Assembly (NCBI GenBank): GCA_003224135.1
Contig: QHYO01000118.1
Span: forward strand, 6,866-16,872
Source: Acidobacteriota bacterium
GTDB lineage: Bacteria > Acidobacteriota > Terriglobia > Acidiferrales > UBA7541
DNA: 10,007 nucleotides
Reading direction: 5' to 3'
Part shown: positions 720 to 10,007 of the stretch, in pieces
How positions within the stretch are numbered: the stretch's first letter is position 1
Layout: each line of letters begins with the position of its first letter
Translations under genes and position numbers: made by a program
The notes under the pieces: generated by a model
What the model saw: only the letters and a program-made list of their open reading frames with translations
What the model was told of the DNA's origin: nothing
Database searches by the model: none

Positions 720-1187
720 TCAGGCTTTGGCCGCCGCTGCAGACTGGGTACGCATCTGCTTCATGAATTGCCGCATGGCCGCGACATGACCGGGCTTACG
801 CTGCTCCGCCCAAGATTCGTAGCGCTGGACTGCTTTTTCCAAGTGCGCGAGGAGTTGTTTGTCCGCGAATCGCTCGCGGAACTCCGGGACGATGGGCTTG
901 ACCTGCTCCCACACCCCGAAAAATTCTCCGCTGGTCTCAAAAAAGAGATCTTCATGCAGAAGGCCGTAGTTCAGCAACGCACAGGCTTGCTCCCAATAGC
1001 CGACCACCATTCCCGCGAACGCCCCAGCTTCGGTTCCGGGTGCCGCGATGCGCATGGCGTCGTCGAGGGAATTCACGATGTAGTTTTTGGCGAACCAATC
1101 GCGTGCCTGACGTAGACGGGCTTCTCGGCGTAAGTCGTAGATCTGAAGGTGAAGTTGTGCTTGTTCGTGCGTCGGATTTCCGTCCAT
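720..1187 (-). CDS. Conserved-looking hypothetical protein, 155 aa
   Basis: Function unknown. The protein has no signal peptide or membrane helix and looks like a soluble, mostly helical cytoplasmic protein. Residues about 7-35 are a charged helix (LHLQIYDLRREARLRQARDW). The centre is hydrophobic with aromatics (GYWEQACALLNYGLLHEDLF), and the C-terminal third is helical and charged, ending in an Ala-rich tail. The ATG at 1187 is preceded by GGGAG about 8-9 bases upstream, a good Shine-Dalgarno site that fixes the start. I see a faint likeness to DUF4760-type proteins but cannot confirm it. The gene stands alone, divergent from the receptor gene with about 675 bases between them. Codon pattern and charge distribution look genuinely coding, unlike the opposite-strand frames. 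Confidence 0.75.
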   Translation of the reverse strand: MDGNPTHEQAQLHLQIYDLRREARLRQARDWFAKNYIVNSLDDAMRIAAPGTEAGAFAGMVVGYWEQACALLNYGLLHEDLFFETSGEFFGVWEQVKPIVPEFRERFADKQLLAHLEKAVQRYESWAEQRKPGHVAAMRQFMKQMRTQSAAAAKA

Positions 1188-5630: not shown

Positions 5631-6281
5631 ATGTGGTATCAAGACCCCGACGCTTGCAGAAAGGATGTCGAGGTATTCCTCGCGCGCATTGCCATCCAGT
5701 CGACAAAGGCCAAGGTCAGAAATGTCATGCACGGTGTTTTTGCTCACGCTTGCCGTCACGAGTGGTTGCAAAAGAATCCCATCAGCCTTGTGCGGCAGGG
5801 CGCGAAACGGGAAAAGGCGCCTGATGTTTTGGATGCCGAAGAACTAAGAAAACTTCTTGCGGAACTTCAGAACCCCGCACGCGTGCTGGTCTTTCTGACC
5901 GCCGCCACGGGATTGAGAGTGTCCGAGGCTCTTGGACTGAAGTGGTCTGATGTTGAATTCGGCACACGGATGACCAATTTGAGCCGCGCAGTAGTTCATC
6001 GCCACGTTAGCGAAATGAAAACGGAAGCGTCTCAGAAACCAGTTCCAATGGCTGGCGCGTTGGCCAATGCACTCCTTGGATGGAGCGGACAAACGCCTTA
6101 TCGCCAGCCCGAAGACTGGGTATTCGCTAGCCCGAAGATGAAATGGCAAGCAACCCTACTGGCCGGAAACGCTGCTGAGGTGCTACGTGCAGCGCATCGC
6201 CAAACATCTAGGTATCACGAAGAAGATAGGCTGGCACACCTTCCGCAGAACTTTCGCAACCCTTCTCACCGGAAGCAATGA
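5631..6281 (+). pseudogene. Tyrosine recombinase (phage-type integrase) remnant, N-terminal fragment
   Basis: Residues about 12-185 of this frame match the core-binding end and first half of the catalytic domain of a tyrosine site-specific recombinase: TKAKVRNVMHGVFAHACRHE (the final helix of the core-binding domain), then REKAPDVLDAEELRKLL, AATGLRVSEALGLKW with catalytic Arg (R96), and EMKTEASQKPVP with the beta-hairpin Lys (K130). The family is normally about 350-400 residues, so roughly the first 130-150 are missing. The opening residues before about 12 do not look like integrase, so the frame's first ATG is probably not an original start. After about 6175 this frame leaves the family (AAHRQTSRYHEEDRLAHLPQ) while homology continues in the +1 frame. 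It is therefore both 5'-truncated and frameshifted. Its 3' end points at the tRNA-Gly gene. Confidence 0.85.
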
Positions 6282-6414
6282 GAACACCAAGACCACTCAG
6301 GAGCTAATGCGGAAGGCGAACGCCGGAATCACCATGAACCTGTACGCACAGGCTCTAACGCCCGCGAAACGTGCAGCACATCTGAAAGTGGTTGAGATGA
6401 TCCGGCCAGCGGCG

Positions 6415-6431
6415 GGAACAGCTTCTGTTCC
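6415..6431. repeat. Perfect small inverted repeat between integrase remnant and tRNA
   Basis: GGAACAG (6415-6421) and CTGTTCC (6425-6431) are perfect complements around a three-base CTT loop. On the plus strand three T follow, so it might have acted as a weak terminator for the integrase. On the minus strand it lies about 35 bases past the tRNA 3' end, without a T-run. Its role is uncertain. Confidence 0.4.
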
Positions 6432-6465
6432 TTTGTGTCCCCACGCTCAGGAAGCAGAGATATTA

Positions 6466-6539
6466 TGGAGCGGCCTATCGGAATCGAACCGACACCTGAA
6501 CCTTGGCAAGGTTCCGTACTACCACTATACTAAGGCCGC
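6466..6539 (-). tRNA. tRNA-Gly (anticodon GCC)
   Basis: Read on the minus strand, the cloverleaf is complete. The acceptor stem is GCGGCCT/AGGCCGC (7 pairs), followed by T8-A9. The D stem is GTAT/GTAC. The anticodon stem is GAACC/GGTTC with loop TTGCCAA, giving anticodon GCC (glycine, codon GGC and also GGU). The T stem is GTCGG/CCGAT with loop TTCGATT. Discriminator base U73, typical for bacterial tRNA-Gly, is followed by an encoded CCA (6466-6468 on the opposite strand). Length is 74 bases including CCA. Its 3' end faces the integrase remnant, so it is the probable attachment site of the lost or degraded island. It could be cotranscribed with the small gene at 6642-6854, but it has its own promoter-like sequence. 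Confidence 0.95.
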
Positions 6540-6552
6540 TCGGTTTCAATTA

Positions 6553-6582
6553 TTTATAACACGCCTTCGCGGAAAGCGACAA
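6553..6582 (-). promoter_or_regulatory. Promoter of tRNA-Gly
   Basis: On the minus strand a TTGTCG hexamer (6577-6582) and TATAAA (6553-6558) are 18 bases apart, with the -10 box 13 bases before the mature tRNA 5' end. An inverted repeat CGCGGA/TCCGCG (6568-6573 and 6584-6589) overlaps the -35 region. Its meaning is unknown. Confidence 0.55.
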
Positions 6583-6641
6583 GTCCGCGAATTTTCTGTG
6601 TTTCCCTAGAATGTTCCTGCTGAAATCATCCTGTTTGAAAT

Positions 6642-7078: not shown

Positions 7079-7576
7079 ATGAATTATTCGAAACTACCGC
7101 CCACTTTGGAAGACCTGAGAAACCATTCTCCGGAAGAGATCGCTGAACTTCGCGTTCTCCTGAGCGTGAACGCGGATATGCGTCCCGACCCTCGGCGTCC
7201 CGGCTTCTTTGAAGTCACCGGCCTCGAGCGCGTCTACTACATTTTCAAATATCCCAATGGCAGCAAGGTTCTTTTGCTCGGTGTTTGGGACCGCGACCCT
7301 GTGGCAGAGGCGGTAGCCTGCTCCTGCACCGCCGCATACTCCCTAATCTTTGTCCAGGTTCAACGCTACGGAATTGATGCAGTATCTCAGCCCCGTTGGC
7401 TGCGGACCATCTTCGAAAACATGCCCCAGATGCGCCTCGCATCGGCTGCACTTTACTTCGGTCCGGCGCATTCCGTGGCTACGATCCTCTTCGGTTTCCA
7501 CGAGTTCTTCCTTCGCTGGGGCATAGAAGCTCGGCCATCCGCATCCCGAATCAAACTTTGTCTCCGACCGGAATAA
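7079..7576 (+). CDS. Small conserved-looking hypothetical protein with probable read-on extension into msrB antisense
   Basis: Function unknown. The first 86 residues look like a compact real protein: a Pro-rich start and helix ([20 protein letters not shown]), then [13 protein letters not shown], paired strands ([20 protein letters not shown]) and a Cys-containing end ([12 protein letters not shown]). From residue 89 the frame lies entirely opposite msrB and its composition changes, so the last roughly 80 residues are probably a chance extension. The codon right after CTAA is TAC (7337-7339), one base from a stop. ATG codons at 7073 and 7079 are both possible and neither has a good Shine-Dalgarno site. 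The in-frame region from 6968 looks non-coding. The gene converges with msrB. Confidence 0.6.
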
Positions 7577-7741
7577 CGGTTGTCCGCAACAAACGCATTT
7601 GTAAGTTCCCGGCGTTTGCGTGTCCTCGTATTCCCCTGTGTACGGAGGCTCCGTTCCCTTCTGCCTGGTCACGTAGTACTGATTCTCCGTAAGCTGCTTT
7701 TTCCACTCGGCTTCTGCTTTCTTGACTTTTTCCTCCGCCAT
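7343..7741 (-). CDS. msrB: Peptide-methionine (R)-S-oxide reductase MsrB
   Basis: MsrB reduces methionine-R-sulfoxide in proteins back to methionine, a cytoplasmic repair of oxidative damage that uses thioredoxin. All family motifs are present in this 132-residue protein. The zinc site is formed by C49-x-x-C52 ([11 protein letters not shown]) and C98-x-x-C101 ([14 protein letters not shown]). The substrate-pocket motif is SGCGWPSFY, with C67 at the resolving-Cys position. The catalytic Cys is C121 in RYCINSVAL. Length is typical for a stand-alone MsrB, and no signal peptide is seen. The ATG at 7741 is preceded by a strong GGGAGGAG about four bases upstream, so this start is preferred over the longer frame to 7795. 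The gene diverges from the PilZ-like gene and overlaps, tail to tail, the extended frame at 7079-7576. Confidence 0.95.
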
Positions 7742-7830
7742 CACACTCCTCCCATTCCACCGTTCCGTTCTGTTATCCGATTCGGTGCGTACCATTGACG
7801 TTACACCGCATATTCCGCAGTCTAAGAGAA

Positions 7831-8217
7831 ATGCAAGATCCCGGCTCCAACTCGAGTTCCGGCCCGGCCGTCGAAATTCCTTATTCGGAGCTTCGCCGCG
7901 CCCGCCGCGCCAAACTCGCCCGGCCCATGCGCGTGCGCCCCTCCGAGCCTCGCGATGAGCATTTTGAAGATCTGCCCATCAGTGTAAACGCTTCAAAACA
8001 CGGCATCTACTTTGTTTCCCGCTGCCCGAACTATTACAAAGGCATGCGTGTTTTTGTCACCTTTCCCTACACCTCCGCGCACGATCCCATGACCTCAGAG
8101 TACCTCGCTGAAGTCGTCCGCATCGATACTCTTCCGAAGGACAAATTCGGCATCGCCGTCAACCTCAAAATGACCGTCAACATGTCCTCCAGTTTCAGAC
8201 CCGGCCCCCGCGCCTGA
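7831..8217 (+). CDS. PilZ-like domain protein, 128 aa (probable c-di-GMP binding)
   Basis: PilZ domains bind cyclic di-GMP through an Arg-rich N-terminal segment and a [D/N]xSxxG motif. Here residues 21-36 are Arg-rich ([16 protein letters not shown]) and residues 53-58 read NASKHG, an exact fit to NxSxxG. Strands follow ([34 protein letters not shown]), as expected for the PilZ barrel. It is a single-domain protein without signal peptide or membrane segment, so it is probably a cytoplasmic c-di-GMP adaptor; the output is unknown. The ATG at 7831 is chosen because the upstream in-frame part (from TTG 7795) is not protein-like, although its Shine-Dalgarno site (AAGAGA) is weak. It lies divergent to msrB and directly upstream of the his promoter. 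Confidence 0.75.
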
Positions 8218-8254
8218 TTTCTTGCTACGATTCGTCTCTGACGTTTCTTCTCCG

Positions 8255-8284
8255 TTGACACGCGCCGCGTATCTCCCCTATTCT
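8255..8284 (+). promoter_or_regulatory. Promoter of the his operon
   Basis: A perfect TTGACA -35 box (8255-8260) and TATTCT -10 box (8279-8284, four of six consensus positions) are separated by 18 bases. The expected start of transcription is about 6-9 bases after the -10 box, at about 8291-8293. That coincides with the ATG of the leader peptide and suggests a leaderless transcript. Confidence 0.7.
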
Positions 8285-8292
8285 TTTCTTTC

Positions 8293-8364
8293 ATGATTCT
8301 CGTTCGCCACACCCATCGTCACCATCATGGCCATCATTCGCCGCGTGCTCTGGGGTGCGGATAG
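8293..8364 (+). CDS. hisL: His-rich leader peptide of the his operon attenuator, 23 aa
   Basis: A short frame encodes 23 residues with the core RHTHRHHHGHH: seven His codons among ten positions (residues 6-15), ending at TAG 8362-8364. It stands between a promoter and an intrinsic terminator, upstream of hisI-hisG-hisD. This is the arrangement of classical histidine attenuation: ribosomes stall at His codons when charged tRNA-His is scarce, which allows an antiterminator to form. No Shine-Dalgarno sequence precedes the ATG (only CT-rich DNA), and the predicted transcription start falls at or next to the A of ATG, so initiation may be leaderless. The functional assignment rests on codon content and context and is strong despite the tiny size. 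Confidence 0.9.
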   Translation: MILVRHTHRHHHGHHSPRALGCG

Positions 8365-8422
8365 CAAATCGCTAATCAAACACCTTTTAGCCCGCTGGCG
8401 CAGCAAGTCCAGCGGGTTTTTT
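8345..8422 (+). promoter_or_regulatory. Transcription attenuator of the his operon (leader RNA)
   Basis: The leader RNA holds a clear terminator (8391-8422) and upstream segments that could compete with it. A plausible antiterminator pairs GTGC (8345-8348) with GCGC (8398-8401), and TGGG (8351-8354) with CCCG (8391-8394), across a small internal loop. It would destroy the terminator's 5' arm. A ribosome stalled on the His codons would leave 8345-8354 free, while one reaching the stop at 8362 would cover it and let the terminator form. A second candidate hairpin pairs GGTG (8354-8357) with CACC (8381-8384), with inner TAGC/GCTA. These pairings were found by eye; the energetics were not computed. 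Confidence 0.65.
8391..8422 (+). terminator. Intrinsic terminator (attenuator) before hisI
   Basis: CCCGCTGG (8391-8398) and CCAGCGGG (8409-8416) form a perfect 8-bp GC-rich stem around a 10-base loop. TTTTTT (8417-8422) follows directly, then G and five more T. AG before the stem can extend pairing into the first T residues. It lies between the leader peptide stop (8364) and hisI (8469), so it must be read through for operon expression. Confidence 0.93.
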
Positions 8423-8468
8423 GTTTTTGCAGCAGTGCTTCGTGGCATTTTTTTGAAAAGGAGTCATT

Positions 8469-8876
8469 GTGGAGATCGCGTTCGATAAATCAGGCGGCCT
8501 CGTTCCCGCCATCATTCAGGATGAAACGTCCGGCGACGTTCTCATGCTCGGCTTCATGAATGCCGAGTCAGTTGAACTCACCTGTCGCACCGGTGAAGTA
8601 GTGTTCTTCTCGCGCTCGCGCAACAAGCTTTGGAAAAAAGGCGAGTCCAGCGGTCATGTCCTGAAAGTCTGCGATATTCGCATCGACTGCGACGCCGACT
8701 CGCTCCTCATCCGCGTGAATCCCGTGGGTCCAGGAGTTTGTCACGAAGGCTATCGTAGCTGTTTCTTTCGCAGCCTGAACAACGAAGGCACCGCGCGGAT
8801 CATTGCTGAGCGCACCTTTGCTCCCGAGTCTGTCTACCCGTCCACAAGCTCGCGGTCCGCAAAAGAGGCCAAGTGA
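8469..8876 (+). CDS. hisI: Phosphoribosyl-AMP cyclohydrolase HisI
   Basis: This enzyme opens the purine ring of phosphoribosyl-AMP to give ProFAR, the third step of histidine biosynthesis, in the cytoplasm. The 135-residue protein shows the family signatures: [18 protein letters not shown] (about 47-63), the metal-binding DCDAD (73-77) and [13 protein letters not shown] (89-101). The three conserved zinc-ligand Cys are at 74, 91 and 98. It is the stand-alone PRA-CH form, with no fused HisE (PRA-PH) domain; the C-terminus ends after a short Ser/Lys-rich tail, so HisE must be encoded elsewhere. The start is GTG at 8469 with AAGGAG five bases upstream. The stop overlaps the GTG start of hisG, indicating translational coupling. 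Expression is likely controlled by the attenuator immediately upstream. Confidence 0.96.
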
Positions 8877-9746
8877 GTACACCGTCCTCGCGTCTGAAAC
8901 TCGGCATTCCCAAAGGCAGCCTGCAGGACGCCACGATCGAGCTCTTTTCTCGCGCTGGATGGAAAATCACCCTCGGTTCGCGCAGCTACGTCCCTGCCAT
9001 CGACGATCCTGAAATCGAATGCCTCCTCCTACGAGCGCAGGAAATGGCGCGCTATGTTCAGTCAGGCGCTCTCGACGCTGGAATCACCGGGCACGATTGG
9101 GTCGTAGAAACCGCCGCTGATGTGGAAGAACTCGCCGAACTTGTCTACGCCAAGCAGCGCCTGGCCCGCGTCCGATGGGTGCTTGCCGTGCCCGAAGATT
9201 CGCCGATCCGCGAGCTGCGCGACCTCCAAGGAAAAGTCATCGCCACCGAAGTCGTTCATCTCACAGAAAAATATCTTCAACGTTTCGGCGTCAATGCTCG
9301 CGTCGAATTCTCCTGGGGCGCCACGGAGGTAAAAGTTCCGCAACTCGCCGACGCCATCGTCGAAGTCACCGAAACCGGCTCATCACTTCGCGCCAATCGC
9401 CTGCGCATTGTGGACACCGTTCTTGAATCCGCCACTGTCTTCATCATGAACCGCGCTGCTGCCGCCGATTCGGCAAAGCGCGAAAAAGCCGAAAATCTTA
9501 TCTTGATGCTCAAAGGCGCCATCGACGCCGCCAGCAAGGTCGGGCTTCTGCTCAACGTTCGCCGAGACCATCTACCCGCGGTGCTCGCTGTCCTTCCCGC
9601 GTTGAAAAATCCCACCATTTCCAATCTCAGCGATCCCGATTGGGTCGCCGTCAACACCATCATCGAACCGCCAGCTTCTGCCCAAACTCAAAGCCGCCAA
9701 AGCTCAGGGCATTGTCGAATATCCTTTGAACAAGATCGTGCTCTGA
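8873..9746 (+). CDS. hisG: ATP phosphoribosyltransferase HisG (long form), frameshifted near the 3' end
   Basis: HisG joins ATP and PRPP, the committed and feedback-controlled step of histidine synthesis. The frame starts at GTG 8873, overlapping the hisI stop, with AAGAGG just upstream. Visible motifs are KLGIPKGSL (8-16), [15 protein letters not shown] (65-79) and the PRPP-binding segment [17 protein letters not shown] (159-175). A C-terminal ACT-like domain (about 215 on, [17 protein letters not shown]) marks the long, self-regulated form. After IIE (codon 265, 9665-9667) the homologous ending [20 protein letters not shown] continues in another frame (from 9672), ending at TGA 9744-9746. 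The offset equals one extra base or two missing bases between 9668 and 9671. Repaired, the protein would be about 290 residues. As given, the gene has no stop and runs in frame into hisD. It may be a sequencing or assembly error or a real mutation in the regulatory domain. Confidence 0.92.
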
Positions 9747-10007
9747 TGCGCATCAGAAAGCTCACATCTCAACTGGAAAAACATCTTCTCTCGCGTCGCG
9801 CACAATCCGACGCCGAAGCGCAGCGTGTAGCCTCCGAAATCGTTTCTGACGTCCGGCGCCGCGGCGACGCCGCACTCCTCACATGGACAAACAAACTCGA
9901 CCACGCCGAATTGCGCCCGAAAGATCTTTGGTTTTCGCAAAAAGAAATCCGTGCAGCCGAATGCAACGTCAGCCCGGACTTTCTGGGTGCGATTCGCCAC
10001 GCTGCTC
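9746..10007 (+). CDS. hisD: Histidinol dehydrogenase HisD, N-terminal part (runs off the window)
   Basis: HisD oxidises L-histidinol to L-histidine in two NAD-dependent steps, the end of the pathway. Only the first 87 residues are present, including [20 protein letters not shown] followed by [13 protein letters not shown] and [10 protein letters not shown]. This matches the conserved N-terminal region (helical start, then the V-x-x-x-x-x-GD-A-L block) of the family. The catalytic and zinc residues lie beyond the window. The ATG at 9746 overlaps the presumed original hisG stop as TGATG, a typical coupled junction. Because of the hisG frameshift, the HisG frame in this sequence continues straight into this ORF. 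Confidence 0.92.

Follow-up and report, generated by a model that had tools for sequence, protein, structure and literature searches.

Among the closest described systems is the enterobacterial hisL leader (RF00514), in which, according to the available part of its description, a run of His codons, an antiterminator and a terminator lie directly before the his structural genes (PMC3896937). Short leader peptides with a His run, together with an antiterminator and a terminator, also precede his operons in some Firmicutes, and the accessible portion of the source mentions no leaderless initiation for these attenuators (PMC9413887). Leader peptides for other amino acids can be leaderless: in extracts of the published accounts, S. 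lividans has leaderless Trp, Leu, Ilv, Met and Thr leaders, of which TrpL1, LeuL2 and IlvL carry a Rho-independent-type terminator (PMC8079986), the ilvB leader of C. diphtheriae is leaderless (PMC5784534), the start codon of the C. glutamicum ilvB leader lies one nucleotide from the transcription start site (TSS) (PMC11857589), and the trpL/rnTrpL transcript of S. meliloti has the start codon of its leader ORF, ATG, at the very 5′ end (PMC7298713). Upstream of actinobacterial histidine operons no conserved RNA structure was observed, as given in the excerpt available from that study (PMC1262725). Among the papers listed in our searches of one open-licence library, none describes an attenuator with a His or Cys leader peptide in Acidobacteriota, a result that holds for those listings and does not by itself show absence in print. 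A 2015 study is said to have searched for His-containing leader peptides in Actinobacteria.

Here, we analysed the region upstream of hisI in a window of 10,007 nucleotides (the whole stretch of DNA under study), and we read it as a ribosome-mediated his operon attenuator whose transcript probably has its 5′ end on the leader AUG or a few bases upstream of it (probability about 0.86). Unlike enterobacterial hisL, the acidobacterial leader has no Shine-Dalgarno (SD) site, its promoter abuts the AUG and hisI comes first in the operon; by score it is not a sequence or structure member of RF00514 (16.7 bits against a gathering score of 49, E 1.7). With the actinobacterial leaders, as far as the available text on them goes, it shares regulatory codons and probably also a transcript start at or close to the leader AUG, which in those leaders falls on the AUG or one base away; they concern other amino acids and another phylum, and their start was mapped while the acidobacterial one is inferred. 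The likeness to S. meliloti trpL is a transcript that starts, here by prediction, at about the leader ATG; that system concerns Trp in Alphaproteobacteria, and its leader also has trans functions, according to the portion of the report available (PMC7298713). The original prediction had considered a leaderless start a notable variation, a view that is weakened because leaderless leader peptides are described in Streptomyces lividans, Corynebacterium and S. meliloti. Leaderless attenuator peptides are thus already known from Actinobacteria and Sinorhizobium, and what is added here is a conserved His version in Acidobacteriota and a Cys version in the family of the window.

The features of the locus are as follows.

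8255 to 8284, plus strand: sigma-70-type promoter, TTGACA-N18-TATTCT (sequence; most relatives examined have a comparable promoter about as far from the leader start)
8290 to 8293, plus strand: predicted transcription start, 0 to 3 nt before the leader ATG and most likely at the ATG
8293 to 8364, plus strand: leader peptide ORF of 23 codons, MILVRHTHRHHHGHHSPRALGCG followed by the stop codon, without an SD site (sequence, relatives, duplex energy)
8308 to 8337, plus strand: regulatory codons, seven His in ten codons (sequence, chance scan)
8339 to 8357, plus strand: 5′ side of the candidate antiterminator, formed by the tail of the leader ORF directly 3′ of the last His codon (fold; pairing in relatives)
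8360 to 8377, plus strand: small predicted hairpin with the leader stop codon, within the antiterminator (fold; helix 3 of the aligned model)
8381 to 8400, plus strand: 3′ side of the candidate antiterminator, overlapping the 5′ arm of the terminator (fold, aligned pairing, duplex shuffles)
8391 to 8422, plus strand: intrinsic terminator with a perfect 8-bp stem, a 10-nt loop and T6 (inverted-repeat search, fold, alignment)
8457 to 8463, plus strand: AAAGGAG, SD site of hisI (duplex –8.4 kcal/mol, against +3.7 for the leader)
8469 to 8876, plus strand: hisI, phosphoribosyl-AMP cyclohydrolase, GTG start (NF000768, 145 bits against a cut-off of 126)
8873 to 9745, plus strand: hisG, ATP phosphoribosyltransferase, with an apparent frameshift near the 3′ end (TIGR00070, 171.4 bits against 75.75; TIGR03455)
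9746 to 10007, plus strand: start of hisD, which continues beyond the window end (Pfam PF00815, 38.8 bits against 27)

A direct check of the window placed the elements named in the original prediction (the TTGACA/TATTCT promoter, the 23-codon ORF with seven His in ten codons, the 8-bp terminator with T6, then hisI-hisG-hisD) exactly where it had put them. The –35 box (8255-8260) and the –10 box (8279-8284) are separated by an 18-bp spacer and match the consensus at 10 of 12 positions, and this promoter was the sole plus-strand match of a simple promoter scan from 7900 to 8700. The terminator arms, 8391-8398 and 8409-8416, form a perfect inverted repeat followed by T6 at 8417-8422; a simple terminator scan passed over it because its 10-nt loop exceeds the limit of 8 set in that tool. 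An Rfam search of the whole window gave only a tRNA at gathering level, and a T-box was rejected since it had no Rfam match.

The source genome comprises 4.5 Mb in 804 contigs and is 85% complete. The hisG frame seems to be shifted at 9640-9760: the frame of the conserved N-terminal part enters hisD without a stop, and the expected C-terminal end apparently lies in another frame, which could be an assembly error. Elsewhere in the window, a tyrosine recombinase split over two overlapping frames (5631-6609, plus strand) lies beside a tRNA-Gly (gcc) (6466-6539, minus strand), an arrangement as at an old integration site. We also observed a protein of 1186 amino acids that combines an outer-membrane beta barrel (PF25183) with a carboxypeptidase-regulatory-like domain (PF13620; 1864-5424, plus strand), a DUF4760 protein (720-1187, minus strand) and the methionine-R-sulfoxide reductase MsrB (7343-7795, minus strand). 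The ORF directly upstream of the his promoter (7795-8217, plus strand) had no Pfam or NCBIfam match at E 0.001.

Recurrence of the His-rich leader

The original prediction had pointed to related genomes as the place to look for His-rich ORFs with terminators upstream of hisI or hisG, and they were found there. hisI was present in 51 of the 61 genomes of relatives, and a His-rich leader (at least three His in ten codons) preceded it in 44 of the 50 loci examined (genome G049 was left out, and L038 has 269 nt upstream only). With a threshold of at least four His in ten codons, 69 genomes carried a short ORF of this kind upstream of either hisI or hisG, out of 112 Acidobacteriota genomes examined, a convenience sample that does not estimate prevalence because part of it was picked for a hisI seemingly early in the operon. 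These carriers span 15 family labels, seven of which (f24, f30, f33, f42, f53, f55 and f67) belong to the same phylum outside the class of the window. The higher threshold drops two loci with three His each (L036 and L040), both of which are kept in the 44 of 50 and in the recount of 71 leaders described below. The same scan, covering only the stretch adjoining hisI or hisG, found no such leader in the other 43 genomes, some of which have hisI inside a long operon.

The wider hisI set drew on the 102 of 159 genomes with hisI, from which 30 loci were taken together with 20 picked ones (14 from family f11 and six others with short open frames); all 20 were leader-positive, a biased figure because they were hand-picked on these grounds. 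hisG was found in 103 of the 159 genomes, and 30 of these loci were examined. For several f11 carriers the genome comprises no more than ten contigs, and a host in culture may therefore exist. In six f30 genomes the leader stands directly before hisG and not hisI (L280, L281, L282, L286, L287 and L288). No terminator was recognised by the scan after these six leaders, nor in L044; the f30 leaders have AT-rich stretches near the ATG and possibly another mode of termination.

Relatives are not independent of one another, and the titled hisI loci overlap the 61-genome set. Among the best 80 of 549 titled loci, 46 had an ORF with at least four His in ten codons within 450 nt upstream, and a terminator was recognised in 40 of the 46. 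The closest titled relatives are mostly metagenome-assembled Acidobacteria (gp2, Candidatus Acidiferrales, class Terriglobia). Acidobacteriota-type titles account for 43 of the 46 leaders, and the remaining three are titled Betaproteobacteria (L054), Gemmatimonadetes (L075) and 'bacterium' (L081). An acidobacterial-type leader on the L054 and L075 contigs probably reflects mislabelled bins, or else transfer. Within the same 80, no leader was found in five Acidobacteriota-titled loci (L097, L099, L101, L114 and L125) or in 29 loci of other groups (Spirochaetes, Planctomycetes and others). L116, from a non-acidobacterial group, has a three-His frame without a terminator.

The chance occurrence of such ORFs was assessed in the window and in control loci. 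Counting ORFs of 8 to 45 codons with an ATG or GTG start and at least five His in ten codons, the leader was the only one on both strands of the window, and 60 dinucleotide shuffles of the window, again on both strands, gave one such ORF in total and none with a terminator after it. The control loci, L131-L221 without L143, amount to 328,635 bases and gave one His-rich hit on the two strands together, a GTG-started frame in L192 about 750-860 nt upstream of a leuA match. The His-rich ORF before the his genes, recurring in 69 of the 112 Acidobacteriota genomes examined, is not a product of chance.

Across these loci the His codons are kept in leader peptides of 18-33 residues, while the rest of the peptide varies between families. 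This pattern argues against a terminator that merely insulates the operon from upstream transcription, with the His-rich ORF incidental or untranslated. Intergenic terminators are common, which makes such a role conceivable, yet here the promoter is itself within the insulated stretch, which means that transcripts of the operon are cut by the terminator as well; we regard this explanation as very improbable, and a plain insulator was rejected as the identity of the region upstream of hisI. His-rich peptides can bind metals, and the peptide might for example act in trans through metal binding instead of sensing His-tRNA. One leader peptide that does work in trans is peTrpL of S. meliloti, according to the section of the report available (PMC7298713). 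However, the His-rich ORF is tied to a terminator in most loci (it was sought before his genes only), and a Cys-rich counterpart lies before a gene whose single scanned relative resembles nitrite/sulfite reductases, which fits amino-acid sensing. The chance that the peptide acts in trans instead is therefore, in our estimate, slighter still than that of insulation.

Promoter spacing and the leader start

In the window the –10 box ends eight bases before the ATG, as the original prediction had it. All eight of these bases (8285-8292) are pyrimidines, and the A of the ATG is therefore the first purine. For comparison, the available part of the S. lividans study gives 4-9 nt (mean 6.3) between the –10 box and the TSS, and a purine at 97.1% of leaderless TSS (PMC8079986).

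Our earlier choice of leader starts favoured a nearby promoter or an ATG, and in a recount of 71 leaders (26 of which had more than one candidate start) only the peptide decided the leader start, and for hisI the start nearest the match was taken. With these starts, a TAnnnT box ended 5-14 nt upstream in 62 of 71 leaders and was accompanied by a –35-like box in 52. The corresponding numbers for other ATGs in the upstream regions of 64 loci (f30 and f24 loci excluded) were 25 and 0 of 317. Start choice shifted these counts only slightly, since with promoter preference the TAnnnT box was present in 63 of 69 leaders and the –35-like box in 54. When the best promoter was sought from –200 to +40, it scored at least 9 of 12 in 37 of 44 loci, and its –10 box ended 6-20 nt before the start in all 37.

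The gap between the –10 box and the start was 11 nt in 19, 9 in 15, 8 in 12, 10 in 7 and another value in 11 of 64 leaders (62 ATG and 2 GTG starts, chosen with a preference for ATG and for gaps of 5-14 nt), giving a predicted 5′ UTR of about 0-5 nt in most leaders. Within the family of the window, 19 of 32 loci had a gap of 11 nt and three a gap of 8 nt, which favours a 5′ UTR of about 3-5 nt over one of exactly zero in that family.

The SD duplex at the peptide-set leader start had a median of +0.4 kcal/mol (+3.7 in the window), compared with –7.4 at the hisI start of the same loci, where 52 of 65 were at or below –5. For the first 44 loci, the strongest in-frame hisI candidate gave a median of –9.3 against +0.4 for the leaders. 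Even when the strongest in-frame leader start was taken, 65 of the 71 were still weaker than –5. The leader of the window thus has no SD site, in agreement with the original prediction. Its further proposal of a leaderless leader mRNA gains from the conserved promoter-to-start spacing and the missing SD, and has to be adjusted in its strict form, given the predominant gap of 11 in the family. The best reading is a leader transcript with a predicted 5′ UTR of about 0-5 nt, to which strong indirect evidence from sequence points.

Alternatively, the His attenuator could have a conventional longer 5′ UTR, with transcription starting further upstream, from a second promoter or by readthrough out of the preceding ORF, which ends at 8217; the leader would then be translated without an SD by some other route. 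Consistent with this, the simple scan found no plus-strand terminator between 8217 and 8255 (the scan that also missed the real one), and SD-like energies at or below –5 occur at 3 of the 71 peptide-set starts, or six if any in-frame start is allowed. Promoters close to the leader start in most relatives examined, and the other 68 starts, all weaker than –5, make a longer UTR unlikely.

The strict promoter-ATG pattern gave 14 hits genome-wide against 11 for a more distant ATG, so there is no enrichment and no sign here of an abundance of leaderless genes in this genome. In three Acidobacteria genomes, leaderless genes made up 9.7-19.4% (mean 13.3%) by a published prediction method, according to the part of that work available (PMC3160421). 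Together, the loci collected here form a large natural set of leader peptides that look leaderless; in them, ribosome loading without an SD would have to be fast enough for termination control.

Predicted alternative pairings of the leader RNA

The original prediction had suggested folding the leader RNA, and this gave a possible antiterminator that competes for the 5′ arm of the terminator. In a nascent RNA lacking the 3′ arm of the terminator, 8339-8357 is predicted to pair with 8381-8400, and the two pairings are mutually exclusive on paper. The leader as a whole folds only modestly better than its shuffles (z –1.51; truncated, z –1.13).

In 33 aligned sequences, 98.5% of the cells of the terminator stem are paired (slid versions, 25-53%), and none of 500 shuffles reached its pairing percentage, its two-sided cells (nine, all at one pair) or its covariation score. 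The antiterminator was not recovered by RNAalifold on the aligned leaders; its model was therefore written from single-sequence folds and then counted over the alignment. By this count 83.6% of its cells are paired (slid versions, 28-46%), a value reached by 3 of 500 shuffles. Two-sided changes are few (two pairs, three cells), and its covariation score was matched by 152 of 500 shuffles.

The ORF tail was also compared with the sequence that leads up to the terminator 5′ arm, and the mean z for their complementarity was –1.28 over 63 loci. This complementarity fell in the best 5% of 200 shuffles in 21 of them, 16 of these being in the family of the window; the window itself (z –1.83, with 11 of 200 shuffles as good) lies just outside this 5%. 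Support for the antiterminator is good in the family of the window and weak in distant families, with little compensatory change.

We also folded the leaders with a ribosome at different positions. At equilibrium, with the ribosome on the first His codon, the terminator had a probability of at least 0.5 in 42 of 43 loci (median 0.85); any switching would therefore need to be kinetic. In simulations, capture of the terminator 5′ arm reached at least 0.5 in 41 of 43 loci when the first His codon was occupied by the ribosome, in 21 when it was the last His codon and in 4 when it was the stop. With shuffled upstream sequence the mean capture was 0.59 (at least 0.5 in 70%) against 0.74 observed; in 21 of 43 loci the capture exceeded that of 24 or more of the 30 shuffles. 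These position-dependent folds point in the direction of the model and are weak evidence, because a longer stretch of free RNA can also take up the arm by chance.

The His-codon run, the possible antiterminator, the terminator and the recurrence in many Acidobacteriota families support ribosome-mediated His attenuation, the reading first put forward in the original prediction. We infer the following course for the 5′ end, ribosome stalling, termination and the response to histidine. RNA polymerase would start at or a few bases before the leader AUG, and a ribosome would load on the bare 5′ end without an SD. With ample His-tRNA, the ribosome would pass the seven His codons to the stop and cover the tail of the ORF; the antiterminator would thereby be blocked, and the terminator would halt transcription. 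With scarce His-tRNA, the ribosome would stall on the His codons, the ORF tail would pair with its downstream partner and, with the terminator 5′ arm occupied, hisI-hisG-hisD would be transcribed.

Cys-rich leaders and other amino acids

One of the 14 promoter-ATG pattern hits in the genome is a poly-Cys ORF of 30 codons, MQMRCQTMCCCCDCCCCRQNHISGLRLLRT (L131 1501-1700; G000:C68:9221-9420), which looks like a further attenuator built in the same way as the His one. Its layout is TTGACA-N17-TACGCT-N9-ATG, followed by a GC hairpin with a T-run and then by a gene cut by the contig end. This gene is present in 17 of the 61 genomes searched; the one relative scanned (L211) matches models of ferredoxin-nitrite reductase, NirA and sulfite reductase, each below the cut-off. 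A Cys-rich leader with a recognised terminator precedes it in 12 of the 17 genomes, all in the family of the window. In these 12, a TTGAC-N17/18-TAnnnT promoter has its box ending 7-9 nt before the chosen start, and three (L206, L211 and L215) have SD-like energies of –5.1 to –7.2. Of the other loci of this gene, L218 and L219 have TAnnnT without a –35 box, L220 and L221 have neither, and L207 was unreadable at the expected place.

Polycysteine leaderless short ORFs in mycobacteria were reportedly described by Canestrari in 2020. The Cys-rich leader of this genome resembles these polycysteine ORFs, and Cys-rich uORFs are also noted for mycobacteria in the available part of another report (PMC4633059). 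The mycobacterial cys leaders have no conserved terminator hairpin, judging from the excerpt available (PMC1262725), whereas a terminator-like hairpin follows the acidobacterial one.

With promoters of both the His and the Cys leaders abutting the leader AUG, it is conceivable, and we propose it tentatively, that leaderless initiation is the standard design of amino-acid attenuators in Acidobacteriota, in which the first ribosome would load on the nascent 5′ end while this emerges from RNA polymerase and provide coupling without a 30S/SD step. If this were so, His and Cys biosynthesis would depend on the state of the leaderless (70S) initiation pathway in addition to tRNA charging.

Leaders for two further amino acids were sought before trpE and leuA with a scan that required an ATG or GTG start and a terminator, at loci some of which hold partial genes. 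No Trp leader was found before trpE in 30 loci. In one of 30 leuA loci (L175, from a genome of the same order), a possible Leu-rich leader with a GC-rich terminator lies about –217 to –120 before the leuA match.
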